Assembly: GCA_030426345.1 (NCBI GenBank)
Contig: JAUHYU010000002.1
Location: 50,075-114,074 of the forward strand
DNA length: 64,000 bases
Source of the DNA: Bacteroidia bacterium
Lineage (GTDB): Bacteria > Bacteroidota > Bacteroidia > Cytophagales > Cyclobacteriaceae
Direction: 5' to 3'
Made by a program: the position numbers and the translations under genes
Notes under the pieces: generated by a model
What the model saw: the letters and a program-made list of their open reading frames with translations, nothing else
The model's database searches: none
What the model was told of the DNA's origin: nothing
Shown here: one piece after another, positions 32,423 to 63,655 of the stretch
Layout: each line of letters begins with the position of its first letter
How positions within the stretch are numbered: position 1 is the stretch's first letter

Positions 32423-34483
32423 TCAGGATTTTGTGTTGTGGATCATCTGCTCAACTGCCTCCAGGATGTTCAATTGAGAACAAGTTTCCTTGTAAAACTT
32501 AAAGCTTTGATCCTGTTTGTATATTTTAGAAAATGATAAAGCATCGGCAAACCATGGAAGGTATTGGTCTTGTGGTGCGTCGGTATAGTTGATGTATATC
32601 ATGCCGATCAGATAGCAGTATTCCGGTTCGAATACGTGGATTCTTTCGGTGATGTATTTATTTATCTGATCAATAATCTGCTGTACCGATTTCAACAACA
32701 TTGCACTATCTACGGTTGCATCGCCAAAACCCAGTAATATGATCTTAAGCAGTTCTACATTGGCCTCAACTTCTTGAGGGATCCGTTGGAAGTTGGAAAA
32801 ACTGTTGATGGATCGATGGATGAGATCGTGGGCTTGACTAAAATCATTTTTTACTCGGGAGCAAGTTGCCAAGGCTAAATCCGCCAAGGCAATAAGTACG
32901 GTCTCGTGGTATTTTTCGGCTAGTTCTTTGGCACGGATGGCATCTTCTTCCCCCGATTGGATAGCCTCAGCATGATTTATGCGAAATTTAATCAGTGCTC
33001 TGCGGCTCAGCAGACGGGAAAGTCTGGGCTCATCATGATCGTCTTCAACATCTTTGATGGCATGGTTGATAAATTGAAAGCTTTGTTCGAAAACTCCATA
33101 AACCATCACATAATGTGAATAATAATAGATAATATCTGCAAGCTCCGTTGTGGTTGGCTTAATCTGGAAACTAGTTGTAACACTTTCAGGAAACCCTGAA
33201 AATAAAATGGGGTTGCCCATATATGTTTGGGCCAAGGCTATCAATCCAACATTCTCAGGAGAGGTATTTTGAGCATGGTGCATATTTTGTCGTGCAGGAT
33301 TAGTGAAATAGTTTTCCGCGTCTTTAGGAGATTGGTCGACTGACCAAGTGTTGATGGTGACCCCAGCACTTGCTGCCCGCTCCAATCTGTCTTGAAAATT
33401 GAATACGTAAGAGCGGCCATAGTTCAGTAAAAACCTTGATATTCCCGTGCCCTCGTAATCCTCGCCGCCCCTGTTTTTCCAGGTTTTATCATAAAGAAAC
33501 CTCGCACTGATCTCATCTCCATAAGATTCTGTCAAAACAGTAAGCATATTGATGGCATCCATCGGCTGAAGATTCGCAATTTTACCGGCAAGTTTTTCCT
33601 TAATCGGAATGTGGCCACCTTCCACCTTTGGTAATGGCTCATAACCATTCACGAATTTGTCAGCCAGTTCCTCTAGATATTGAGCGGCATCATATTCGAT
33701 AGACATTGCTTTATCCTTGCCGTGGAAATTGATCAAGTCAGTTATGCTTTGGCGCACCTTGCTTCCCGGAAAGCATAAATAAGTAAATCCCTTTGCTTTA
33801 GGGGCAGCATCTCTAAATCCTAGGTAATTGGGGTTATCATCGAAGTCTTCACCGGAAAATCCCGCAAATATAAATTGATGTCGTTGCAATAGTTTTAGTA
33901 AAGCCTTTCTTAAAGCCTCAGATCTGCCCTTAAGTCGCTGTTTTCTGGTATCGATCATGGAGGCAGGAGAAGCGCAGGTTCCATGTATTTTTATAATTGG
34001 GATCATATTGCCATTATCCGTCACCATAGATTTGAAGCCCTTTTCATCAAAGAAACATTCAAAGGGAACCCCAAGGGCGCTAAAGGCCCGTTCGAAATTC
34101 TGATCAAAGTTAGTGGTAACTACGGCTTTGATCAGGCCTGCTTTGGCAAGCACGGCTGTATAATATTGTACCGCATTGTAGGTTTCGGAGTCGACTGCAC
34201 TCAGTAGTTCAAAATAATTGATGCCCACACGCTCCGCCATCAGTTGAGCCTGATAGTCAGGAGGAAACTTATTATCATTCCGCCGTTTTTTTATTGAGGG
34301 CAAAATTCTTTCACGAAATCCCTTCGTGATCCTATATTCCTCCAATCTGTCCCAAAGCGAATCTAGAATTGCGTCGTTGAGGTCATACCATCCGGGAAGT
34401 GACGATGGAGGCGACATGGAGCAGCCGGCACCGGCAAAGATCACTAGCCCGTCTTTGTCAGTAAAAGGTTGCGTGTTGGTCAT
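32423..34483 (-). CDS. SIR2-like (SIR2_2) NADase-type protein with helical/TPR-like C-terminus
   Basis: 686 aa: 'VIFAGAGCSMSPPSSLPGW', 'AVVTTNFDQNFERAFSALG', 'PIIKIHGTC', 'FIFAGFSGEDFDDNPNYLG'. Confidence 0.85.
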   Translation of the reverse strand: MTNTQPFTDKDGLVIFAGAGCSMSPPSSLPGWYDLNDAILDSLWDRLEEYRITKGFRERILPSIKKRRNDNKFPPDYQAQLMAERVGINYFELLSAVDSETYNAVQYYTAVLAKAGLIKAVVTTNFDQNFERAFSALGVPFECFFDEKGFKSMVTDNGNMIPIIKIHGTCASPASMIDTRKQRLKGRSEALRKALLKLLQRHQFIFAGFSGEDFDDNPNYLGFRDAAPKAKGFTYLCFPGSKVRQSITDLINFHGKDKAMSIEYDAAQYLEELADKFVNGYEPLPKVEGGHIPIKEKLAGKIANLQPMDAINMLTVLTESYGDEISARFLYDKTWKNRGGEDYEGTGISRFLLNYGRSYVFNFQDRLERAASAGVTINTWSVDQSPKDAENYFTNPARQNMHHAQNTSPENVGLIALAQTYMGNPILFSGFPESVTTSFQIKPTTTELADIIYYYSHYVMVYGVFEQSFQFINHAIKDVEDDHDEPRLSRLLSRRALIKFRINHAEAIQSGEEDAIRAKELAEKYHETVLIALADLALATCSRVKNDFSQAHDLIHRSINSFSNFQRIPQEVEANVELLKIILLGFGDATVDSAMLLKSVQQIIDQINKYITERIHVFEPEYCYLIGMIYINYTDAPQDQYLPWFADALSFSKIYKQDQSFKFYKETCSQLNILEAVEQMIHNTKS

Positions 34484-48777: not shown

Positions 48778-49926
48778 TTAGAGGCCTATTGATGCGGACT
48801 TTTTTTCTGTTATGTTCAACTTAAGTCCTTCCTCTGAAATCCAGTTGCTCTTACTCTCATTTAGTTTAAAAACGTAGAATAATTTGGTTGCATCGAGCGC
48901 ATTTTCTAGAATACACAATCGGTAATTTAGTTGTGTAGAATGCTTATACTCATTTGGTGTTAATTCAATACTACCTAGCGCATTTGATAACCCCTTTACC
49001 TCTAACAGCAATCTGGTATTGTCATGTGATGCCTCAAGATCCCATCCTACATTATTCTTGCTAACATCTTCAATAAGAAAGCCTCTCTTTTCAAAATATT
49101 CAGCGGTTGCATCCATCGCAGTTAGTTCAACCTTTTTTCTTTTTTCTACATCAGGTTGCCAAGAACGTGATGATTTCTTTCTTCCAAGAGTTGTCTTTGG
49201 CAATTTGTTAAGCTTAATGTATTCCCAAATTGAATGGTTAATTTGATGATAAGGCTCACCCATGAAATACCAATGATTTGTTTGCCCTGGCTTATGATTA
49301 GGATCATTTGGAATTCTAAATACTCTTTGATCAGGTGGCAACAATACAGCGTTCTTGAAATTTGATTCGCATATGAATTCTGGTCTATTTCCTCTCATTT
49401 TACCATTTAGCTTTTGAAGCTTTCTGTAAAAAATTGCAATATGATACCACCCAATTATAAATTGACCTCCTGTATTTGGGTTTTTTGAAATGAAAATTAT
49501 TGTGACCTTATCAATTGAATTATCACTCTCATTAGCACCCAAGTGCTCAATTTTATAGTTACGATCCTTTTGATTTCGAGCATAGCCATAAAGCTTTCCA
49601 TTGATGTTTTTGAAATTGTATGCTTCTCCTCCATCCTTATTTTCAGTCACATATGAACCCGCCCCAGTTGGAATATCATCTTTATTTGAACCCTCATATT
49701 TATTCATCCAAGCGACTCTTAGAACTATAATTCTTTTATTGTAAATCGTCCAATTTGAACGTTTTGAAGGTTGATATGCTCCTGTAAATTCTGCAGGGTT
49801 TGATCTAATAATATTCCTTAGGATCAATCCTTTTTGAGACTTTTCATTTCTTTCAATTACTCCCTGTTTTACCAAAATATCCTCGGCTTCATTTGGAGTC
49901 AAAGAAAATATGCCATTTTGCGACAA
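48778..49926 (-). CDS. DUF3883-type protein (predicted PD-(D/E)XK-like C-terminus) with a distinct N-terminal domain
   Basis: C-terminal 'GFLIEDVSKNNVGWDLEASHDNTRLLLEVKGLSNALGSIELTPNEYKHS' DUF3883-like; N-terminal 'YGYARNQKDRNYKIEHLG...GGQFIIGWYHIAIFYRKLQ'. Confidence 0.75.
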   Translation of the reverse strand: MSQNGIFSLTPNEAEDILVKQGVIERNEKSQKGLILRNIIRSNPAEFTGAYQPSKRSNWTIYNKRIIVLRVAWMNKYEGSNKDDIPTGAGSYVTENKDGGEAYNFKNINGKLYGYARNQKDRNYKIEHLGANESDNSIDKVTIIFISKNPNTGGQFIIGWYHIAIFYRKLQKLNGKMRGNRPEFICESNFKNAVLLPPDQRVFRIPNDPNHKPGQTNHWYFMGEPYHQINHSIWEYIKLNKLPKTTLGRKKSSRSWQPDVEKRKKVELTAMDATAEYFEKRGFLIEDVSKNNVGWDLEASHDNTRLLLEVKGLSNALGSIELTPNEYKHSTQLNYRLCILENALDATKLFYVFKLNESKSNWISEEGLKLNITEKKSASIGL

Positions 49927-49966
49927 ATATTGCTGTAGGAAATCCGAACATTTTTTAGGTCACTCA

Positions 49967-50422
49967 TCAGAGAGTTTTAATAATCTTTTCAAAGGCATAA
50001 TTCTCAACAAACTCCTTCATAGTCTGCGTATTAAGATTGATTCCATACTCTGGATTCTTGACTGCTGAGTCTGTGAATAGCTGATTTGGTTCATTCCAAA
50101 CTGTACTTGGAAACAGATATTTAGTCGGTTTCTGACCATCTACAAACAGAACTAAACCAATCCCGAGATCATCTCTTAAACCTTGTTCTAATTCTTTTTT
50201 GGAAATAAAGGTGTAATTGGTTTTTTCAATGTTGATTTGACCGCAAAGAACATCAAATTCAGACTCCCCTACTCGATTTAGCACCCTAAAATTTGCTCCT
50301 TTATGATTCAAATAGCTCTGAATAACATGATGGTTTTCGGAAAGTATAAAGGCAGTTTTTATTATGGTCTGTGCTAGCTGATCTAGTTTGGAAATTGGAC
50401 GGAGTTTTGACCATTGATTCAA
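49967..50422 (-). CDS. Orphan small protein in the methylase/helicase operon
   Basis: 151 aa, 6 nt downstream of the methylase gene, same strand; no motif confidently recognised. Confidence 0.7.
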   Translation of the reverse strand: MNQWSKLRPISKLDQLAQTIIKTAFILSENHHVIQSYLNHKGANFRVLNRVGESEFDVLCGQINIEKTNYTFISKKELEQGLRDDLGIGLVLFVDGQKPTKYLFPSTVWNEPNQLFTDSAVKNPEYGINLNTQTMKEFVENYAFEKIIKTL

Positions 50423-50428
50423 ATCAGA

Positions 50429-51388
50429 TTATTTTCGTTCTGGATTAATCTTATTTTCACGTAATTCCTTCTTAGTCAATCTTAATGGATTTTTTTTAGT
50501 TACAAGTGCTTGGTCATAGTATTGATTGGTCCATACAACCTCATTACGTTCAAAACTATTACCATTACTTCCTTTTGTTATCGTATTTATAGTTTTTTTA
50601 GACCAACCTTTTGACTCTGGAAGCATTTCATTATATAAATCATTATCGTAACCACTTATAAAAATCATGCATTTACATTTTCTAGCCACTTTTAACAGAT
50701 CTATATGGAACTGCTCCTCATATTGATCATTGTTATATCCTTTTGTTCTTTTCGCAAAATATGGTGGATCAAGGTAAACGAGAGTGGCAGGTCTCCTATT
50801 AAACATTTGTAACAATTCAGATGCCTCTTTTCTTTCAACTCTTACATCTTTTAATCTACTGACAACTTTAGACAGCCTTTCAGGTAAATTATTCCATCTA
50901 TTGACTCTTGCTTCTTTTCCATTTCTTGAATAGGATTGAGAATATGAAAACCCTCCTTTAACTTCTCCAAAAACACCATTGATTGCCATCATAGATTGAA
51001 CCAAAAATTTACGAGCTCGTTCTAATTCACTATCTTCAATATTGCAAATTCTAGCATTTTCCAATTCTACTCTAGAATAAGGAGTAAGCTCAACTAATCT
51101 TATTAATTCAGCCTCATTATTGCGCAGCTGCTTAAATAAATTAATTATATCGTAATCAATATCATTAATTATCTCAATTAAAGCTGGTGGTTTTGCTAGA
51201 GTCAATGCTGCTGATCCGCAGAAGGCTTCTACCCAGCAATTATGTGGAGGTAGCTGTTGTGCAAGTTGAAATGCTATTTTGTTTTTTGATCCAAAATAAC
51301 CAAATGGAGTATTTACCTTCTTATATTTTAAATCTTTGGCATTTTCAAACGCTTGTACTTCTCTTTGCTTTGCTACCCCAACATCCAT
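50429..51388 (-). CDS. DNA adenine methylase (D12/Dam class)
   Basis: 'TPFGYFGSKNKIAFQLAQQLPPHNCWVEAFCGSAAL' and catalytic 'LVYLDPPYF'. Confidence 0.92.
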   Translation of the reverse strand: MDVGVAKQREVQAFENAKDLKYKKVNTPFGYFGSKNKIAFQLAQQLPPHNCWVEAFCGSAALTLAKPPALIEIINDIDYDIINLFKQLRNNEAELIRLVELTPYSRVELENARICNIEDSELERARKFLVQSMMAINGVFGEVKGGFSYSQSYSRNGKEARVNRWNNLPERLSKVVSRLKDVRVERKEASELLQMFNRRPATLVYLDPPYFAKRTKGYNNDQYEEQFHIDLLKVARKCKCMIFISGYDNDLYNEMLPESKGWSKKTINTITKGSNGNSFERNEVVWTNQYYDQALVTKKNPLRLTKKELRENKINPERK

Positions 51389-51390
51389 GA

Positions 51391-52398
51391 CTATTTTTTT
51401 TGCTTCAATTTACCTTTAAATTTTCCTTCTACAATGAATCCATTAGGACTTGTTTTCAATCGCAAGTCTTTCTCCAAATTCAAGGCAGGGTTATGGAACA
51501 TTATCGGTTCAAATTTCGTGGTTTGATTTTTAACATCAACCCCACCTTGATAATAAATCCAATATTTTTCTCCTAATTCTTTTGCTATGGCAAGTTCATT
51601 CGGAGTCCAAAAGAATCTGACGTCTTGTCCCTTTGAGCCCTTAACTTCAACAAATCTATCAAATTTCATGTTTTTAGCCTTTCCATTAAATGATTCTAAA
51701 TCATAACCGGCATTAACCCGCAATTTAGCAATCATACGCACACACTTTGATTCTGGAAGAAGTCCCTTACTTAATAATCTCTCACGTTCAAAATCCAAGA
51801 CTAATTTTTCAGCTAAATCTCCTAGTTCCTTTTTCTCTTTAAGCCACTCCAAATATTGATTCTCAGTCCATCCTTTGGGTTCATTAATAAATTCGGCAAT
51901 TGTTTCTAAATAAGTTATATTAACTTCATACCCAAAATCAGTTCTATTAAAAACTCCTAACTGCCTCATATGGTCAGCAACCCAATGATATTCACCCATG
52001 GGTGTACCATCAAACTCATTCCAAATTAGCGTATTCTTAGTTTCTATAAATGATTCCAAACACTTTCTTAAGGATGATCTTATCGGACCATCCATGTAGC
52101 ATTTCCTTAATAGGTAAGATTTTTGTGAATCAGACAAATTAAAAAGCTCTTCAGGGTTTAACTCAATAAAATCTATTCCATCACTAGTTAATTTGACTTT
52201 ATTTTTCCCTGGACTATAATCTAATAGACCAGCCATAACGGCATAATCAATACTCAATTCATGGTCTGGAATTCTCGCATCAATTGTAATATTTTTACAT
52301 TGATCAATAAGGCTACTAACTGATATCGCTGAATCACTTGAAAGTGTCTTTGCAAAAAGTAGAACTCTATTTAACTCTGATATACTATCAATTTCCAT
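51391..52398 (-). CDS. DUF3883-type / restriction-endonuclease-like protein
   Basis: 335 aa; 'LGDLAEKLVLDFERERL...NAGYDLESFNGKAKNMKFDRFVEVKGSKGQDVRFFWTPNELAIAKELGEKYWIYY'. Confidence 0.82.
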   Translation of the reverse strand: MEIDSISELNRVLLFAKTLSSDSAISVSSLIDQCKNITIDARIPDHELSIDYAVMAGLLDYSPGKNKVKLTSDGIDFIELNPEELFNLSDSQKSYLLRKCYMDGPIRSSLRKCLESFIETKNTLIWNEFDGTPMGEYHWVADHMRQLGVFNRTDFGYEVNITYLETIAEFINEPKGWTENQYLEWLKEKKELGDLAEKLVLDFERERLLSKGLLPESKCVRMIAKLRVNAGYDLESFNGKAKNMKFDRFVEVKGSKGQDVRFFWTPNELAIAKELGEKYWIYYQGGVDVKNQTTKFEPIMFHNPALNLEKDLRLKTSPNGFIVEGKFKGKLKQKK

Positions 52399-54274
52399 AA
52401 AGTCTTCTCAGTTGATCAATTACTCTATTGAAATCTGCTTCTTCCTCGCTAGCTTCGCTCATATCATGAATTGATGAATCAAGATTTAATAATGCAAAGT
52501 CATCTTCAAGAATTTCAAACATCCGCTTTTGTTTCTCTTTAAGTCGATCATCAATGACATCATCAATTGAATCTTTCGCCATTAAAAAGTAGTAATGAAT
52601 TTGCTCGTCAGGGTCTAATCCGATTCTATGTATTCGATCGAGAGATTGTGTAAACTGGGCGCAATTAAATGTTCTGTCTACATAAATTGCGTGATGACAT
52701 ACCTTATGTAACGAGACAGATTCTGCGCATGCACTAGGATTCGCAATTAGAAGATTAAATTTATTTGATTCCTTAAATTCCCTTATCATTTTTTCTCTGT
52801 TATGAAATTCATCTTCATTGTCATCTTTAGGAATTTCACCATACACTAATCGTGGCTTGTATTCTGCGAATAAATTTTCTAACGTTTTTATGTTATGAAC
52901 AAAAGATGTCCATATAAGTACCTTTTCACCTCTATCTAAAATCTCTTTAGCTAACTTCATGGTTAATTCCAATTTTGGAGGTGTTTCAAAATTTGGATAA
53001 TTCTCAATCAATTCCGTAACACTTAGTCCAGTAGAGTTCATTGGAGGCACTTCAAATTCATAAGAAAATTGGGCCAATAATCCTGGATTTGACGCAATTT
53101 GCAACAACCTTATAGTTCTGGCTCGTCTCCAGTTTCTTAATCTTTGCCTTTCAACTGGAACCCTTTCCAATTCACTTAATACTTTGACAGCTATAGCATC
53201 GTAAATTGCCTTTTGTACAGGCTTCATTTTTACAGGAATCCTATGAATTTTAGGAGTTCTTAATTTGAGCTTACTTTTAGGTATTCTCCAAAATAATGGT
53301 CTAAGTTCGTCTCTTATACTACTCTGTGCATCTTTATCACTATTAATTCTATCCTTATAGGAATCAGAAGTGCCTAGTATATCTGTGTTAGGCCAAAGAA
53401 AGTTTATTTGAGACCATAAATCTTCTAACGAATTGGGTACAGGTGTACCTGTTAGAATGATTCTCCTTGTTGCAAACGGTGCTAGGGAAATTAATGTTGA
53501 AGACCATGCTCCCCCTTGTAATCTTTTTATGTAATGTGATTCATCAAGAATTAGTAAAACTTTATTCGATGTTAAAAACTTTGCTACCCATTCCTTATCA
53601 TTTGTGACCATTTGATAACTCATGATAATGAAATCTGCATTTTCAGCTTCTTTATGCAGTTTTTTTCTTTCTTTTATAGGGCCACTTATTCTAACTGAAA
53701 CTGGTACTTTACCGAAACATCCATTATATTCTTCCTCCCAAGACATAAAAGCAGCTCTAGGTGCTACAATCATAATCTTATTCACTTCATCTCGATCTTT
53801 CAATATTGAATATGCAGCAAGAGTAATAGTCGTTTTACCGCTTCCAGGAACAGAAAAATTAGCAGAGTTGCCTATTCCTACCATATGTGCAACTGCAGGA
53901 ATTTGATATGGTTTTAATGTGCGTGTAAAACCAGGAATATCTAGTTCTAAAGCTGGAGAATTCTTTAGCCTAATTCCCGCTTCAATTGATAATTCAAGAT
54001 CTCTTTCTTTACTTTCCTGCTTCGCGATTAATTCTTTTAGTTCACCTTTTACATCAATGTCTTGATGCTTTGATATAAAGTAATCTAAAACCTCTGATGA
54101 AACTTTGGATATTTCATCAATACTTGAGATTAATATTAATTGCCCATCTTCGTTTTCTTCAAATCCCAAAATATTCTCAAGGTAGATTGAATCTCTTCCA
54201 TCAAAACCTTCATCCGAAGATGTAATAAGCTTTAGTTCACTTCCGTCTAGAGAAATTGAATATTTAATTTCCAT
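52388..54274 (-). CDS. SNF2-family DNA helicase/translocase
   Basis: Walker A 'FSVPGSGKTTITLAAY', motif II 'LLILDESHYIK', 'RRIILTGTPVPNSLEDLWSQINFLWP', 'QSLDRIHRIG'. Confidence 0.92.
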   Translation of the reverse strand: MEIKYSISLDGSELKLITSSDEGFDGRDSIYLENILGFEENEDGQLILISSIDEISKVSSEVLDYFISKHQDIDVKGELKELIAKQESKERDLELSIEAGIRLKNSPALELDIPGFTRTLKPYQIPAVAHMVGIGNSANFSVPGSGKTTITLAAYSILKDRDEVNKIMIVAPRAAFMSWEEEYNGCFGKVPVSVRISGPIKERKKLHKEAENADFIIMSYQMVTNDKEWVAKFLTSNKVLLILDESHYIKRLQGGAWSSTLISLAPFATRRIILTGTPVPNSLEDLWSQINFLWPNTDILGTSDSYKDRINSDKDAQSSIRDELRPLFWRIPKSKLKLRTPKIHRIPVKMKPVQKAIYDAIAVKVLSELERVPVERQRLRNWRRARTIRLLQIASNPGLLAQFSYEFEVPPMNSTGLSVTELIENYPNFETPPKLELTMKLAKEILDRGEKVLIWTSFVHNIKTLENLFAEYKPRLVYGEIPKDDNEDEFHNREKMIREFKESNKFNLLIANPSACAESVSLHKVCHHAIYVDRTFNCAQFTQSLDRIHRIGLDPDEQIHYYFLMAKDSIDDVIDDRLKEKQKRMFEILEDDFALLNLDSSIHDMSEASEEEADFNRVIDQLRRLYGN

Positions 54275-54282
54275 ACCCTTCT

Positions 54283-55500
54283 CTATTTGGTGGAATCAAT
54301 TATTTTCTTGAGAATCTCATTTATTTCTTTTAATTCTTTTTGGGCTTTTTCCTCTTTTAAAATCGGAGATTTCTCATCAACCCCATCAAGTGCAGATTTA
54401 GCCCTACTCAGTAGCCTCAATGGTTTATCTCTATCTTCTTGCGCATCTACAACCTCTTTAGCGCTTGTAAAGGCCTCTTTAAGTTGTTCCCCATCTGGTT
54501 CTTTAACAATTATTGGTTTTGAATCACTTTGTTCAGTTTTTTCATCTTGCGTAGGTGTTTCTTGAACAAGTGATGATTTAAGTTGATTAGCAGCTTTAGG
54601 AATCGTTGCAATTTTTCGAAGCTCTCTTATGTCCCAATGACTGACATCCGTTTTTTCAATTAACCCAAAAGCAACCTCTGTGAGAGTTGCAATTTCTTTA
54701 CCATCTATACCATGTTTCTTTTTAAGTGGTTTAATAACATTTGAATAAAGGCTGTTAAATTTTTCTAACGAACGGTGTTCAACTATTAAATTGTATTGTC
54801 CTTTTTTATTAATAAACTTGAGATAGCTATCAATCAATTTTAATGTATCTAATTTATCCCTGACAGTCTTTACTGTATATCTTCCTGCTAAAGCTATCGA
54901 AATCTCTTTATCACTTAATTTTTGTCTTTCACCTTCTCTCAGTTTGATAAGCTCGTTGACCCCACCATATTCAAGTCTATAATCCCTTCCAAATTGTAAT
55001 CCTGCTTCAATTTTCCATAGGTCTTTTTCACCCACATCCGAAGGTAAACGGGCAACTAAAAGATATTCATATTTTGAATCCTTTGTCTCTTCAAAAAGCT
55101 CATGCAGAATTGCCATTCTTCTATTTGCATTTATTACAGCTCCGTCATGTGTAATAATTCCTGGGTCCAGTTGTCCATTTTTAATGAGATCAGCTTTAAG
55201 AACTTCCGTTTCAGATCTTTTTTGTTCCAACAATAATTGTCTGAATATTGGTTTATCTTTTTCATCAGAAGCATCAAGTTTTTTATTTAGTTCTGATTGT
55301 TTTTCCAATAGTTCAGACCTAAAACGTCCATTCATAATATTATGAATCAGATACTTCGTAGGTATTTTATAAACTGGATGTCTATGTAAAACACCTTTAT
55401 ATGATATGGTCATTCGAGATTTATCCATTTCTTCATCATCTTGAACATGAGTTGCAAGGTATGCGTCAATAAGCTTGGACCTTTCTGTACTTAGCATCAT
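54283..55500 (-). CDS. ParB/Srx-like domain protein
   Basis: 405 aa; 'HPVYKIPTKYLIHNIMNGRF...LKADLIKNGQLDPGIITHDGAVINANRRMAILHEL' ParB N-terminal-like. Confidence 0.75.
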   Translation of the reverse strand: MMLSTERSKLIDAYLATHVQDDEEMDKSRMTISYKGVLHRHPVYKIPTKYLIHNIMNGRFRSELLEKQSELNKKLDASDEKDKPIFRQLLLEQKRSETEVLKADLIKNGQLDPGIITHDGAVINANRRMAILHELFEETKDSKYEYLLVARLPSDVGEKDLWKIEAGLQFGRDYRLEYGGVNELIKLREGERQKLSDKEISIALAGRYTVKTVRDKLDTLKLIDSYLKFINKKGQYNLIVEHRSLEKFNSLYSNVIKPLKKKHGIDGKEIATLTEVAFGLIEKTDVSHWDIRELRKIATIPKAANQLKSSLVQETPTQDEKTEQSDSKPIIVKEPDGEQLKEAFTSAKEVVDAQEDRDKPLRLLSRAKSALDGVDEKSPILKEEKAQKELKEINEILKKIIDSTK

Positions 55501-57776: not shown

Positions 57777-58352
57777 ATGATTTATATTTTTGAAGGTATG
57801 GATAACTGTTTGAAAGATACCTTAATTCAGTTGCTTAGATCACACCTGCCTCCACAGACACAAATTCTAAAATTCAGTAATCCACCGAAAAATATAGATT
57901 CACCAGAAGATTGGCAAAAAGCTCATTTTAAAGATATGTTCGATTTAATAAAATTGAATGTGGCTAATTGTCCTCGTAATCTGATTCTAAATCGCGCACA
58001 TCTTGGAGAATATGTGTATTCCCCTATTTATAGAGGTTATGAAGGCAATTGGATTTTTGATTTAGAAGAGTCATTTCTTAATGTTTCCAAGGAGCATATA
58101 AAAATACTCAAATTATTTGTTCTATATGACTCAGATAACTTTCAACTTAATTCACGAGAAGACGGTAAGAGTTTAAGCGAGAGTGACAATCAAAAAATGG
58201 ATCTTGAAAGAGAAAGGTTCATAAAAGCTTTTGAAAAAAGTAAAATTCCTTGTAAAAGGATATTTGATGTTTCTAAGTATCTTTTAGATGGAGCTGATAA
58301 ACCGAAACAAGTTGACATAAATTTGATTCTTAAATTGATGCTTGACCTATAA
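57777..58352 (+). CDS. Deoxynucleotide kinase-like (thymidylate-kinase-like, phage-type) protein
   Basis: 191 aa; 'IYIFEGMDNCLKDTLIQLLRSHLP' (divergent P-loop), 'NLILNRAHLGEYVYSPIYRGYEG' dNMP-kinase-like DR/LID-type motif. Confidence 0.7.
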   Translation: MIYIFEGMDNCLKDTLIQLLRSHLPPQTQILKFSNPPKNIDSPEDWQKAHFKDMFDLIKLNVANCPRNLILNRAHLGEYVYSPIYRGYEGNWIFDLEESFLNVSKEHIKILKLFVLYDSDNFQLNSREDGKSLSESDNQKMDLERERFIKAFEKSKIPCKRIFDVSKYLLDGADKPKQVDINLILKLMLDL

Positions 58353-58439
58353 TTAGCATTATTTTTTCAATGAGTGATTTTGAATATATTGTAGTCGTTA
58401 TTGAAGCAAAAAATAAATATTTTATGTAAAATCTTCCAA

Positions 58440-59378
58440 ATGTTAAACAAACCAACCGAATTTATTTCACTAGACGATTTGTTACATGCCACTTATAGTG
58501 ATATCCTTAGTAAGGGTGTCGATATTGAGGGTAAACGTGGTAATTTCAAGGAGTTAATAAATTATTCTGCTACTCTTAATAACCCTAGGGTTCGAACATC
58601 TATGTCTTTGCACAGAAAGCTTGTACAAAGCAAATTTGCTGAGTTTGCCTGGTATTTGTCCAAAGATGGTGATAGAGATTATATCGAACCATATATTTCT
58701 GCTTACGGCCATGAAGAACAAGAAAACAACAGAATATTAGGAGCTTATGGATCAAAAATATTTAACTCTGAGAACGGTCAAAAGTCACAATATGAAAGAG
58801 TTATTGAGCAAATATTAAATAGAAAAATTACCAAACACGCATATTTGTGTATAAGTGAAAAAGCGGATTATAAATTTCGTCACAAAAAGCACGACAGTCC
58901 ACCTTGCACAATTGGTTTACATTTTTATGTCAGAGAATCCAAATTAAATCTAACCTGTTATATGAGAAGTAATGATGCATTTTTGGGTTTACCTCATGAT
59001 TTATTTTGCTTCACAATGCTGCAGGAATTGATTTCTCTTAGATCTAATATTCCAATTGGAAACTATACACACTGTTCTACTTCAATGCATATTTATGACA
59101 AACATTATAGTTCGGCTGATCAGTATCTTTCTGAAGGTAAGCAGGAACCAATTGAGATACCTAGAATAAAAGAATGTAGTTGTGAAACACTTAATTTGGT
59201 CTCCAAAGAATTTGACACAAAAATATCGAAATCATATATGAATCACCTAGATGATTATTGGAAGGATTACGTATTATTCTCAAAGAGCTATTTAAATGAG
59301 AGTTCTGATTTTGAATCTTGGTTAGGTAAATTTAGTAATGCGGAAATGCGAAAGATTGCCCGAAATAGTATAAGTTAA
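58440..59378 (+). CDS. Thymidylate-synthase-superfamily protein, 'GLPHD' subfamily (candidate pyrimidine C5-methylase/hydroxymethylase); ORF open from 58401
   Basis: 'GNFKELINYSATLNNPRVRTSMSLHRKLVQSKFAEFAWYLSKDGDRDYIEPYISAYG...ILGAYGSKIF...SPPCTIGLHFYVRESKLNLTCYMRSNDAFLGLPHDLFCFTMLQELI...GNYTHCSTSMHIYDKH' tracks ThyA motifs including the PPC nucleophile region. Confidence 0.82.
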   Translation: MLNKPTEFISLDDLLHATYSDILSKGVDIEGKRGNFKELINYSATLNNPRVRTSMSLHRKLVQSKFAEFAWYLSKDGDRDYIEPYISAYGHEEQENNRILGAYGSKIFNSENGQKSQYERVIEQILNRKITKHAYLCISEKADYKFRHKKHDSPPCTIGLHFYVRESKLNLTCYMRSNDAFLGLPHDLFCFTMLQELISLRSNIPIGNYTHCSTSMHIYDKHYSSADQYLSEGKQEPIEIPRIKECSCETLNLVSKEFDTKISKSYMNHLDDYWKDYVLFSKSYLNESSDFESWLGKFSNAEMRKIARNSIS

Positions 59379-59380
59379 TT

Positions 59381-60250
59381 ATGAAAATTAGTGAATTAGA
59401 AATATTATGGAATAAAGCACTAATTGAGGTACTCGATAAACAAATTGATGGTAATGAATTAAATATATTGGCAGCACAGACTTTTGACAGTATTAGAAGA
59501 ATTCAAATCTATGATACATATAGACTTAAATCTCAACAAGCCGTCCAAGCTAAAGAGACTTTTATACATACTTCAAATCCGTTTGTTTTAGCCCAGAGAT
59601 CAGATTTAAATCTTCTCAATAGGACATGGATAATATACTTAGCTACCTATTTTGGTAAAAGCAATAAATCTCATTGGGAATTATTCAACCGAGCTAGCTT
59701 TCGTCAAGATCAATCCCTAATTAAGTTTGACGAAATTCAAGCAGATTTAGATAACTATTTTAACTACTTATTGAGTTTTGAGTTTTTCGATAGTTGTTCT
59801 TATTCGAATCACCGAAAATATACTGCTAAAAGATTAACGGGTGATAAAGGACTGTTTAGAAGTATGGAGTACTTTGTAAATAATATTTATAATTATTCAA
59901 CTGGCAATAAAATGGAATTTCACGAGATGTATGTTCTATCTCAAAAAATACCAAATTTTGGAAGATTGGGAGGCTTTGATTTCACCAGTGCACTCGTGAA
60001 ATGTAGACTTAACGTTAAAGAGCCTAAGTCTATGTATGCAAACCATAGTACCGGGCCACTTCAAGGACTTGAATTACTGCTGAAATTGACTAATAATAAT
60101 GCATCCAAATCATCACAAATTCAATTAAGCTTTGATTTAATGGACTGGTTTTTCAAAAACAGCAAAATATTTATGGTAGGTCAAGTGTTAGAGGATGCCA
60201 TCTGTAATTGGCAAAAAAACACTAAAAGATATATTAGATACATTGGATAA
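59381..60250 (+). CDS. Unknown helical protein, possibly alpha-glutamyl/putrescinyl thymine pyrophosphorylase-like (base-hypermodification family)
   Basis: 289 aa; 'NLLNRTWIIYLATYFGKSNKSHWELF' and 'IPNFGRLGGFDFTSALVKCRLNVKEPKSMYANHSTGPLQGLELLLKL'; starts 2 nt after the ThyA-like stop. Confidence 0.5.
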   Translation: MKISELEILWNKALIEVLDKQIDGNELNILAAQTFDSIRRIQIYDTYRLKSQQAVQAKETFIHTSNPFVLAQRSDLNLLNRTWIIYLATYFGKSNKSHWELFNRASFRQDQSLIKFDEIQADLDNYFNYLLSFEFFDSCSYSNHRKYTAKRLTGDKGLFRSMEYFVNNIYNYSTGNKMEFHEMYVLSQKIPNFGRLGGFDFTSALVKCRLNVKEPKSMYANHSTGPLQGLELLLKLTNNNASKSSQIQLSFDLMDWFFKNSKIFMVGQVLEDAICNWQKNTKRYIRYIG

Positions 60251-60251
60251 T

Positions 60252-61316
60252 CTATGTAAACTCAACCTTTCTATAAACCTTCCTATACCAGCTGTATGGG
60301 GCTAATTTTTCCCGATGTATTTGTGCAACAATAAGTGAAGCAGAAATATCATACTTTACGGCAAGGGATAAAATATCATTATAAGAATTACATTTTCTGA
60401 TATGACGTTTTATATCTTCTGGAAACAAAAGAGACTCTACATAATTATTTGCTTCTTCTTCTTCATAGATATTATTTGTTTTCAGAGATGCTAGTTGGAA
60501 TTCATCGTCAGAGTAATGTATCAAAGGAAACCTAAGACTATGTAAAATACAATGAGATAATTCATGAAGAAAAGTAAACCAAAACGCAGCGTTATTTTTA
60601 TATCTATCTGTTATAACAATTAATCGATAATCTTTCAGAAGTCGTTTAGTAAAGCCTGATACACCATATCCAGATTGACTAGATTTAAACAAAACTACTA
60701 CACCGCTATTAACACAGATTTCTTGAATTTTATCTAAAATATTATGTATTCTGTTGACTTTGGTATAAGAAACAATACTTAGTAACGAATCATTCAACGA
60801 TTCAGCCGAAAAGGTTTTCACTCTACCCTCATATATAAGTTTTTCAGCTTCTTTCTCACAATCTCTAATCCAATTTGCAATTTTAACAGGAGATGGTTCA
60901 AATCTTTGAGTTTTACTATATAAAATGACAGGATTTTCAAAGTAATCCAAAACAAGATGTTCTAATGATGAATATTGGAAATCGCTAAGTAAGTTGTTAA
61001 GATCAGTTTTTCTTGAGATGCATAGTTCATCAAGTGTTATTTTATGTGCCGAATAAACCTGTTGATTTGATTTAGTTATTTCTTCAAGATAGTCTTTATA
61101 CCGATTTACCCAAAACACTTCAGAACCACCTAAAATCTGAGAGAACTGATAGGCTAGTTTCTCACTCAATTTTAATTGGTCATGTATTAATTTACCAAAC
61201 TCTTCAACTGTGAGATTTAATATTTCTCTGAATTTTTTTATATCTATATTTAATTCCGATACTCTTCTAAGTATTGTTGTGCTAGGTGGTGAAACAATCT
61301 GGTAATCGAAGTCCAT
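60252..61316 (-). CDS. XRE-like N-terminus + ImmA/IrrE metallopeptidase-like protein (HigA-type antitoxin/regulator)
   Basis: 'FREILNLTVEEFGKLIHDQLKLSEKLAYQFSQILGGSEVFWVNRYKDYLEEI' HTH-like; 'FTFLHELSHCILH' HExxH; 'EEEANNYVESLLFP'. Confidence 0.85.
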   Translation of the reverse strand: MDFDYQIVSPPSTTILRRVSELNIDIKKFREILNLTVEEFGKLIHDQLKLSEKLAYQFSQILGGSEVFWVNRYKDYLEEITKSNQQVYSAHKITLDELCISRKTDLNNLLSDFQYSSLEHLVLDYFENPVILYSKTQRFEPSPVKIANWIRDCEKEAEKLIYEGRVKTFSAESLNDSLLSIVSYTKVNRIHNILDKIQEICVNSGVVVLFKSSQSGYGVSGFTKRLLKDYRLIVITDRYKNNAAFWFTFLHELSHCILHSLRFPLIHYSDDEFQLASLKTNNIYEEEEANNYVESLLFPEDIKRHIRKCNSYNDILSLAVKYDISASLIVAQIHREKLAPYSWYRKVYRKVEFT

Positions 61317-61322
61317 TTAATT

Positions 61323-61661
61323 CTACTTATAATTATGGCTATTAATTAAATCACTTTGCAAACCAACATTTAAGATCTTTACAATCTTTATTCGATCAAT
61401 CTGATTATCAGTTAGCTTATTGTATTTACTAATTATTTTGCTGATTATTTTAAAAGAACCATAGTTTATTTCTAGGATTTCTTCTTCACTATTACGAACA
61501 TATTTCAAAGGAGAATCATTTAATTTAGGTGCTGCTTTTAAGTCAGCAATAATAGCTCGAATTTCTTTAATTTCATCACTAGAAAAACTTGAATTCAAAG
61601 AAGCTGGCCTCAATAACAGGCAACATTCTCTGATTTCATCATTTTCATATGATATAAACAT
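61323..61661 (-). CDS. Small protein paired with the XRE/ImmA protein (candidate HigB-like toxin)
   Basis: 112 aa, adjacent upstream on the same strand with a 6-nt gap; size and order fit a toxin partner, family not firmly recognised. Confidence 0.5.
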   Translation of the reverse strand: MFISYENDEIRECCLLLRPASLNSSFSSDEIKEIRAIIADLKAAPKLNDSPLKYVRNSEEEILEINYGSFKIISKIISKYNKLTDNQIDRIKIVKILNVGLQSDLINSHNYK

Positions 61662-62028
61662 GTTATAAAGTTATAATTTTGAACTAAAACATCACTATTA
61701 TTTTATAATGATAAATGGTAGATTTTTTTTAATTTCCCACACATTCCCTTTCCCTTCTGCCCTTGTCGTGATTTCCGCCGCTATCCCTAACTCAAAAAAC
61801 CTAGCCGAGGTATCTGCACATATTCCAAAGTTATATAACCCTCCGCACAAAATATTTTTTTGTAAAAAGTGTATCTGCTAAGCCCAAAAAATCCTCTTAC
61901 CTAAAAAACTTGATCTTTCCCTACCCTTAAGCTGTATTAACATAACAAAGAACATTATAGAAGGGATTTGCTCACAGGTGTGCAGGCCACTATATAACAA
62001 TATCTGTTGTCAGCTTGCTGATTAATGG

Positions 62029-63149: not shown

Positions 63150-63392
63150 ATGAAAACATTGACAACAACAGAAGCACGTAAAAACATTTACAAGCTGATA
63201 GATCAGGCCAATGAGACTCATGAGCCAATTCAGATCACTGGTAAAAAAAGCAATGCCGTGTTGGTGGGTGAGGAAGACTGGCGCAACATACAAGAGACCT
63301 TGTATTTGACTTCAATTCCCGGCATGAGGGCATCGATTGTAGATGGCATGAAAACTCCTGTTTCGGATACTTCTAAGGATTTGGATTGGTGA
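63150..63392 (+). CDS. Type II antitoxin, Phd/YefM family
   Basis: 'MKTLTTTEARKNIYKLIDQANETHEPIQITGKKSNAVLVGEEDWRNIQETLYLTSIPGM'. Confidence 0.92.
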   Translation: MKTLTTTEARKNIYKLIDQANETHEPIQITGKKSNAVLVGEEDWRNIQETLYLTSIPGMRASIVDGMKTPVSDTSKDLDW

Positions 63393-63655
63393 GCCACTAC
63401 ACGCTGGTTTATACAAAACAGGCTCAAAAGGATGCTAAAAAAATCGCTGCTTCAGGATTAAAACCTAAAGTTCAGAACTTGCTGACTATTGTGGAGCAAG
63501 ACCCATTTCAAGCGTACCCACCTTATGAAAAACTCCTTGGTGATCTGCTGGGAGCTTATTCACGTAGAATAAACATCCAACATCGGCTGGTTTATCAGGT
63601 ATTGGAAGAAGAAAAAATCGTCAAGGTAATTAGGATGTGGACACATTATGAATAG
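63386..63655 (+). CDS. Txe/YoeB family toxin
   Basis: 'YTLVYTKQAQKDAKKIAASGLKPKVQNLLTIVEQDPFQAYPPYEKLLGDLLGAYSRRINIQHRLVYQV'; 7-nt overlap with the antitoxin gene. Confidence 0.92.
   Translation: MVSHYTLVYTKQAQKDAKKIAASGLKPKVQNLLTIVEQDPFQAYPPYEKLLGDLLGAYSRRINIQHRLVYQVLEEEKIVKVIRMWTHYE

Follow-up and report, generated by a model that had tools for sequence, protein, structure and literature searches.

The present work deals with a stretch of 64,000 nucleotides (nt) from a Bacteroidia bacterium of the family Cyclobacteriaceae (GenBank assembly GCA_030426345.1, contig JAUHYU010000002.1, positions 50,075 to 114,074 of the forward strand). This stretch, referred to below as the window, carries a cassette in which a gene of the thymidylate synthase (TS) superfamily and a gene of the aGPT-Pplase3/ADDT family (aGPT below) face a convergent pair encoding an XRE-ImmA protein and a HigB-like protein. 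The gene families, the architecture, the co-evolution of the genes, their mobility and the residues that specify the substrate were observed directly, and the identity and architecture of the cassette are well supported and can be stated with high confidence. The features concerned are the following (aa, amino acids):

57777..58352, + strand: gene A, phage-type thymidylate-kinase-like protein (191 aa); accessory, outside the conserved core
58440..59378, + strand: gene B, TS-superfamily protein, predicted dCMP 5-hydroxymethylase (312 aa); core; PF00303 3e-22, MilA-like profile
59381..60250, + strand: gene C, aGPT-Pplase3/ADDT-family protein (289 aa); core; PF18746 8.7e-30, PF18724 4.3e-24
60252..61316, - strand: gene D, XRE-ImmA (M78 HEXXH metallopeptidase) protein (354 aa); core; PF06114 at cut-off
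61323..61661, - strand: gene E, HigB-like small protein (112 aa), directly upstream of D; core; no Pfam family
58438..61705, strand not applicable: mobile block; 83% DNA identity to Pleomorphovibrio marinus (L013), G+C contrast

An earlier reading of the sequence (the original prediction) had described genes A, B and C as an operon of a nucleotide kinase, a variant ThyA and a helical protein, bounded by the opposite-strand ImmA/XRE pair. The three + strand open reading frames (ORFs) are indeed present, at 57777-58352, 58401-59378 (325 aa from TTG) and 59381-60250, as are the 2-nt gap between genes B and C and the motifs GLPHD in gene B and FGRLGGFDFTSALVKCRL...STGPLQGLELL in gene C. Gene B probably begins at ATG 58440 (312 aa) rather than at TTG 58401, because its closest relative, in L013, begins equivalently; genes A and B are therefore 87 nt apart.

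Conserved architecture and mobility

Relatives were searched for with the aGPT protein only, and the neighbouring genes are therefore independent evidence. Scanning 85,462 species genomes with a profile yielded 58 loci. Among the IMG/VR viral contigs, the single C protein of the window matched none, and a query with an alignment found 15 loci. Neighbour counts based on hidden Markov models (HMMs) refer to 57 genome loci, with the exclusion of L052, which is the contig of L008. The conserved order comprises a TS-like gene, a gene of a TDG/UDG-like glycosylase (20 of the 57 loci) and the aGPT gene, facing a convergent XRE-ImmA gene and a HigB-like gene. In the first relative (L005/L009, Balneolaceae), the genes of TS, a 271-aa protein and aGPT face the HigB-like and XRE-ImmA genes.

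A TS gene accompanies the aGPT gene in 55 of the 56 assessable genome loci (upstream in 53, slightly farther away in L043 and L045); the two genes thus co-occur widely. The ImmA/XRE pair, taken originally for a boundary, turned out to be a conserved partner of gene C: the convergent XRE-ImmA gene is present in 53 of 55 assessable genome loci, abutting in 51 and separated by an insert in two. In 50 of 51 assessable genome loci, ImmA is preceded by a HigB-like gene of the same position and HMM family, and both ImmA and HigB were found in all 15 viral-collection loci. The distance between the stop codons of aGPT and ImmA ranges from -29 to +46 nt in all loci except the two with an insert, the commonest arrangement being a 4-nt overlap (20 loci); in the window, the two stop codons are one nucleotide apart. 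As the abutting stops leave no room for a terminator, the transcripts of the tail-to-tail genes are likely to overlap. Candidate terminators 3' of gene C, located 30-65 nt past its end and inside gene D, were discarded, their number being no higher than expected by chance.

The pairwise protein distances are correlated across the loci, with r = 0.913 for aGPT-ImmA (0.876 among pairs more than 50% divergent), 0.883 for TS-ImmA, 0.844 for TS-aGPT and 0.791 for ImmA-HigB; the Mantel p was 0.0005 for each correlation, which is the floor of 2,000 permutations. These correlations are explained by en-bloc transfer, which in its turn speaks for a unit. The architecture is retained at 20-30% protein identity. 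In a Microbacteriaceae genome (L048, 7966-9873), TS and aGPT are fused in one 635-aa ORF, and this fusion is further evidence of their joint action.

The trio of kinase, ThyA and helical protein did not hold as a unit. The kinase gene was found intact near the cassette in two loci only, the window and L059, with a remnant in L013, and no further homologue was detected among 398 genomes of the phylum. The locus survey thus ruled out the kinase as a core component. Among the accessory neighbours that recur, a NUDIX-cluster gene was counted in six loci and one of the DUF4031 cluster in seven (the NUDIX and DUF4031 loci being L020, L030, L042, L055, L058, L079; L036, L040, L051, L043, L045, L023), with a small helix-turn-helix (HTH) gene in some of them. 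An orphan aGPT3 gene, with neither TS nor ImmA, is located in L008/L052 (about 10313-11224 of L008) between a methylase-like ORF and a 1057-aa ORF, which we take to be Z1-like; the surroundings contain further methyltransferase-like ORFs.

The cassette is rare and horizontally mobile. It occurs in at least six bacterial groups, with loci from Bacteroidota, Pseudomonadota, Actinomycetota, Verrucomicrobiota and Balneolaceae, and also from plasmids. The carriers are prophages, a P1-like phage-plasmid, conjugative plasmids and defence islands; plasmid copies were found, among others, in Leptospira, in Arthrobacter (on a conjugative plasmid) and in Pantoea, where the plasmid also has phage head genes and ddrA. 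Among 5,426 complete genomes of E. coli, 230 (about 4%) contain a chromosomal cassette, nearly all with at least 99% identity. Type I restriction and MazG-like genes adjoin both of the E. coli copies that were read, and one of these copies has a dGTPase gene beside it too. The annotation of C is 'hypothetical protein', and that of B is 'thymidylate synthase', in part of the E. coli records and in the four plasmid copies that were inspected. The HigB-like ORF of an E. coli cassette (108 aa; L135, 13161-13487), which overlaps the start of the XRE gene by 4 nt, is unannotated in RefSeq.

The G+C content of the cassette genes of the window is 27-33%, against 40-44% in the flanking genes. The block 58438-61705, which lies outside the matching flanks, recurs at 83% identity in P. 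marinus amid other neighbours. The related genome G747 has no cassette at this place: its DNA similarity to the window stops at about 57544, shortly before the amidohydrolase gene ends.

Predicted functions of the encoded proteins

Gene C matches the Pfam family aGPT-Pplase3 (PF18746) with 104.5 bits at a cut-off of 25 (E 8.7e-30, profile positions 2-278 of 279) and ADDT (PF18724) with 86 bits at a cut-off of 26.2 (E 4.3e-24). A PDB sequence search with gene C found no matching chain, and that with the 271-aa protein gave nothing useful, so both proteins were folded. As was found with the AlphaFold2 model of gene C (mean predicted local distance difference test score, pLDDT, 95.4), the best PDB folds are three entries of the phage 5-phosphomethyl-deoxyuridine (5-PmdU) glycinyltransferase PUGT (probability 0.92-0.97, E 0.07-0.33, TM-score about 0.42). 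The top match is 8z2n (probability 0.97, E 0.07), and OGG1 comes next, far behind. Among the predicted viral folds of BFVD, the matches were ADDT, aGPT clade 1 and the helical domain of the 5-hydroxymethyldeoxyuridine (5-hmdU) kinase (probability 1.00, E 0.003-0.012). The Pfam and fold matches together uphold the original placing of gene C in a helical family of base-hypermodification enzymes, and the structural comparison that had been proposed as a check did find such a relation, which the models indicate to be remote (TM-score about 0.4-0.5). Sixteen columns are invariant in 66 C sequences, including H144-R145, R195, D200, E271-D272 and C275-NWQK. Gene C is predicted to be an amino-acid or polyamine transferase acting on a hydroxymethylated pyrimidine.

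Gene B belongs to the TS superfamily (PF00303, 3e-22). A profile of 63 relatives retrieved from the PDB the CMP hydroxymethylase MilA (5jnh, 3e-70), the closest solved relative, ahead of an ordinary TS (1.5e-28), a lead of about 41 orders of magnitude in E-value. All 63 relatives share the residues C156, R176, S177, N178, D179, H186, D187, H217 and Y219, among them the catalytic Cys (C156) and the Asp (D187) which replaces the base-reading Asn of TS. D187 is aligned to Asp186 of MilA and Asp179 of the T4 deoxycytidine monophosphate (dCMP) hydroxymethylase, the determinant of cytosine over uracil (PMC5175136, PMC6400193). S177 is aligned to the Ser of the deoxyribose enzymes, whereas the counterpart in MilA is Ala176 (PMC5175136, PMC6400193). 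Three positions ahead of the catalytic Cys, each of the 63 relatives has a polar residue (Glu, Asp, Ser, Asn or Gln); in T4 this residue is the water-activating Asp145 (PMC5175136, PMC6400193). Gene B thus resembles the MilA/BcmA CMP hydroxymethylases and T4 gp42 in the cytosine Asp and in this polar residue, but its setting is a defence-like cassette, whereas theirs is antibiotic biosynthesis or a T-even phage.

The score of gene B against the dTMP-synthase equivalog (69.6 bits) did not reach the cut-off of 327, and LPHD stands in place of LPFN. The same genome contains a separate full-length ThyA (G000:C86, 425 bits), and gene B is therefore not the housekeeping enzyme. The view of gene B as a specialised ThyA variant is supported by this separate ThyA and by the hydroxymethylase-type residues. 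The GLPHD motif indicates cytosine rather than thymine or uracil chemistry: the invariant D187 and the relationship to MilA ruled out hydroxymethyl-dUMP as the leading product. It seems quite probable from the residues that gene B hydroxymethylates cytosine, with dCMP as the likeliest substrate and 5-hydroxymethyl-dCMP as the likeliest product, and some doubt concerning the sugar.

The 271-aa protein encoded in 20 of the 57 genome loci has no Pfam match. Its model (pLDDT 93.6) resembles human TDG (E 4.9e-5, probability 1.00), followed by SMUG1, UdgX and family 4 UDG, and the protein is predicted to be a TDG/UDG-like glycosylase. Glycosylases of the UDG superfamily that attack modified cytosine are proven anti-phage effectors: Brig1 excises glucosyl-hydroxymethylcytosine (PMC11078745) and Brig3 excises hydroxymethylcytosine (PMC13160076). 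The likeness of the cassette to Brig1, Brig2 and Brig3 is at the fold level and concerns the 20 loci; in contrast to these enzymes, which excise the modified base of the phage itself, the cassette would make the modified base.

Gene D matches PF06114 at the cut-off and the PADLOC model PD-Lambda-2_B (PDLC03982; 1.6e-13 in the window, 1.6e-24 in L009), and its HExxH motif and E286/E288 are invariant in 26 of 26 family members. No Pfam family and no PADLOC match were found for gene E. It is likely that D is the toxin or sensor of the pair and that E is its partner, antitoxin or toxin. In PD-λ-2, where an XRE-ImmA peptidase fusion likewise comes after a HigB-like gene, the roles are opposite to those expected, the XRE-peptidase being toxic by itself and the HigB-like protein counteracting it (Vassallo et al. 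2022, PMC9519451); by analogy, such a reversal may apply to D and E. The cassette differs from PD-λ-2 in that it lacks the third gene, PD-λ-2C, and in that the pair faces a base-modification operon. An exclusive link of the pair to the cassette was rejected. The HigB-ImmA pair is a portable partner of DNA-modification systems and not private to the cassette, because it was also found alone, without TS or aGPT, at times within type I restriction operons or next to them (L121, L125).

The similarity of gene A to thymidylate kinase is weak (Pfam E 0.019, below the cut-off; PHROG 761, E 7e-8). Its homologues were found in eight phage records, jumbo phages among them. The Walker A motif (P-loop) of this putative deoxynucleoside monophosphate (dNMP) kinase reads GMDNCLKD here and in L059, compared with GPDRAGKG in a phage homologue, and the intact GxxxxGK[ST] is absent; because of this degeneration, catalysis by gene A is doubtful. 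In an uncultured jumbo phage (LR756500; L140, 4869-6370), a TS-like gene with GLPTD comes immediately after a gene of the kinase family. This arrangement suggests a pair of dNMP kinase and cytosine hydroxymethylase, GLPTD containing the cytosine-type Asp. Because of that pairing, gene A plausibly came with a hydroxymethylase from a phage, and it could phosphorylate hydroxymethyl-dCMP.

Proposed mechanism and alternative readings

The proposed mechanism has two arms. The first arm (B, C, often the glycosylase and rarely a phage-type kinase) would make and elaborate 5-hydroxymethylated cytosine. Gene B would transfer CH2OH from methylene-tetrahydrofolate to dCMP, host kinases, perhaps aided in the window by gene A, would convert the hydroxymethyl-dCMP to the triphosphate, and the latter would enter DNA during replication. 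Gene C would then replace the activated hydroxyl by an amino acid or amine, and the glycosylase, where present, would excise one state of the modified cytosine. The second arm, the convergent HigB/XRE-ImmA pair (E-D) of the PD-λ-2 kind, in which the toxicity of a metallopeptidase-repressor would be held by the small partner, would regulate the first arm and/or abort infection upon disturbance of the first arm or of the cell. The net effect would be defence against phages and competing elements. We infer all of these reactions, as well as modification at the level of DNA rather than of nucleotides and the role in defence. The full two-arm mechanism, as stated, leans only slightly towards being correct. 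Defence against phages or other elements, suggested by context and precedent, is somewhat more probable and is the likeliest role, because of the defence and mobile surroundings: the type I restriction-modification (RM), dGTPase and MazG genes in E. coli, the plasmids, and the RM-like operon and SIR2 gene of the window.

Several points weigh against this mechanism. No phage test of the cassette was found in the literature examined, and all protein activities are predicted. No PADLOC models match B or C. A 5-hmdU DNA kinase (HMUDK-type) has no Pfam match in the five locus proteins, and a search of the genome itself, which had no positive control, was empty; the activation of the hydroxymethyl group that gene C would require thus has no recognised enzyme. 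The window copy has no glycosylase gene, and none was found elsewhere in the genome by a search that likewise had no positive control. At the position of Lys133 of MilA, the B family has Arg in 54 of 63 relatives and Lys in 9; the subgroup of the window carries Lys, like MilA, where the deoxyribose enzymes have Arg, and since MilA itself prefers CMP, the sugar preference of gene B is uncertain.

The cassette is similar to the thymine hypermodification systems of phages (aGPT-Pplase, ADDT and 5-hmdU DNA kinase; PUGT, 8z2n) in the family and fold of gene C and in its supply by a TS-superfamily hydroxymethylase. Unlike them, it has no recognised 5-hmdU DNA kinase at the locus, it has cytosine rather than uracil residues in gene B, and it is bacterial and combined with a toxin-antitoxin-like arm. 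A validated defence system of E. coli with a TS domain was reported by DefensePredictor (Science 2026, PMC13092281), the legend also naming dNMP kinase and 5-hmdU kinase. The same source lists aGPT-Pplase, stated there to be untested, among eight predicted defence systems, with UDG and HTH also named in the legend of its Fig. 6F (PMC13092281). The cassette may well be this predicted aGPT system. ImmA, HigB, cytosine specificity, the convergent arm and the distribution of this cassette do not appear in the main text of that source. The present study adds the cytosine assignment, the convergent and co-evolving HigB/ImmA arm, the optional TDG-like protein and the range of carriers, with E. coli among them, and it reduces the kinase to an accessory.

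A more specific proposal, which is tentative and less likely than not, is that of a bacterial immune system making its own non-canonical cytosine: on infection, hydroxymethyl-dCMP would enter the fast-replicating (phage) DNA and be elaborated by gene C, some versions would add TDG-like excision, and the metallopeptidase toxin would act as a guard. If this is true, the base-hypermodification trick of phages has been turned into a weapon. If the two-arm mechanism is right, a hypermodified-cytosine pathway exists in bacteria and mobile elements outside phages, wired to a toxin-antitoxin-like guard. It would also give a function to aGPT-Pplase clade 3, which was named from computation and has no assigned activity in the literature examined, and would link the nucleotide-modification defence genes, the anti-phage glycosylases of the UDG family and the HigB/XRE-ImmA systems. 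The E. coli copy makes the cassette testable at once in laboratory strains.

The location on prophages, a P1-like phage-plasmid and conjugative plasmids, the homology of the enzymes to those used by phages for self-protection, and the finding that the window cassette encodes no nuclease (Pfam, PADLOC) would also suit self-marking, in which the modification shields the carrier element (prophage, plasmid or island) or the host from restriction, and HigB/ImmA is an addiction module stabilising the cassette. This appears unlikely: tblastn with the window protein and the L009 protein found no relative of C in 50,697 phage genomes, although this kind of protection is typical of phages; modified DNA would be damaged by the glycosylase that roughly a third of the loci encode; and the co-evolution of C is closer with XRE-ImmA than with TS, which exceeds the need of simple addiction.

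Some copies have nucleotide-pool genes as neighbours (those of dGTPase and MazG in E. coli, NUDIX in six loci, the kinase in the window), and the B family acts on monophosphates. These points raise another alternative, in which the product of B and C is a modified nucleotide made from dCMP, which would poison replication, deprive the cell of dCTP or serve as the ligand of XRE-ImmA, with no modification of DNA by C. It is rather improbable, as the solved relative of C, PUGT, is described as a glycinyltransferase for 5-PmdU of phage DNA, its substrate presumably being DNA, and a glycosylase partner implies a base borne by DNA. That the cassette is a spare, degenerating TS operon which came from phages and no longer has a function, as the degenerate kinase P-loop of the window, the broken kinase gene of L013 and the host's own ThyA might suggest, is very improbable, since B, C, D and E are full length, their catalytic residues are invariant across very divergent copies, and the architecture is kept at 20-30% protein identity; purifying selection on B-E is already implied.

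Surroundings of the cassette in the window

The defence-rich surroundings described originally were recognised within the window in the form of an RM-like operon and a SIR2 gene. The RM-like operon (48778-55500, minus strand, 33.8% G+C) encodes a 405-aa protein with no Pfam match, an SNF2-type helicase (ZorD/DpdE-like in PADLOC), two NO VEIN C-terminal (NOV_C) proteins, a D12 adenine methyltransferase and a 151-aa protein with no PADLOC or Pfam match. The gene at 32423-34483 (minus strand) encodes a 686-aa SIR2_2-domain protein, which resembles the defence SIR2 proteins in PADLOC. A YefM-YoeB type II toxin-antitoxin pair is located shortly downstream of the cassette, at 63150-63655.

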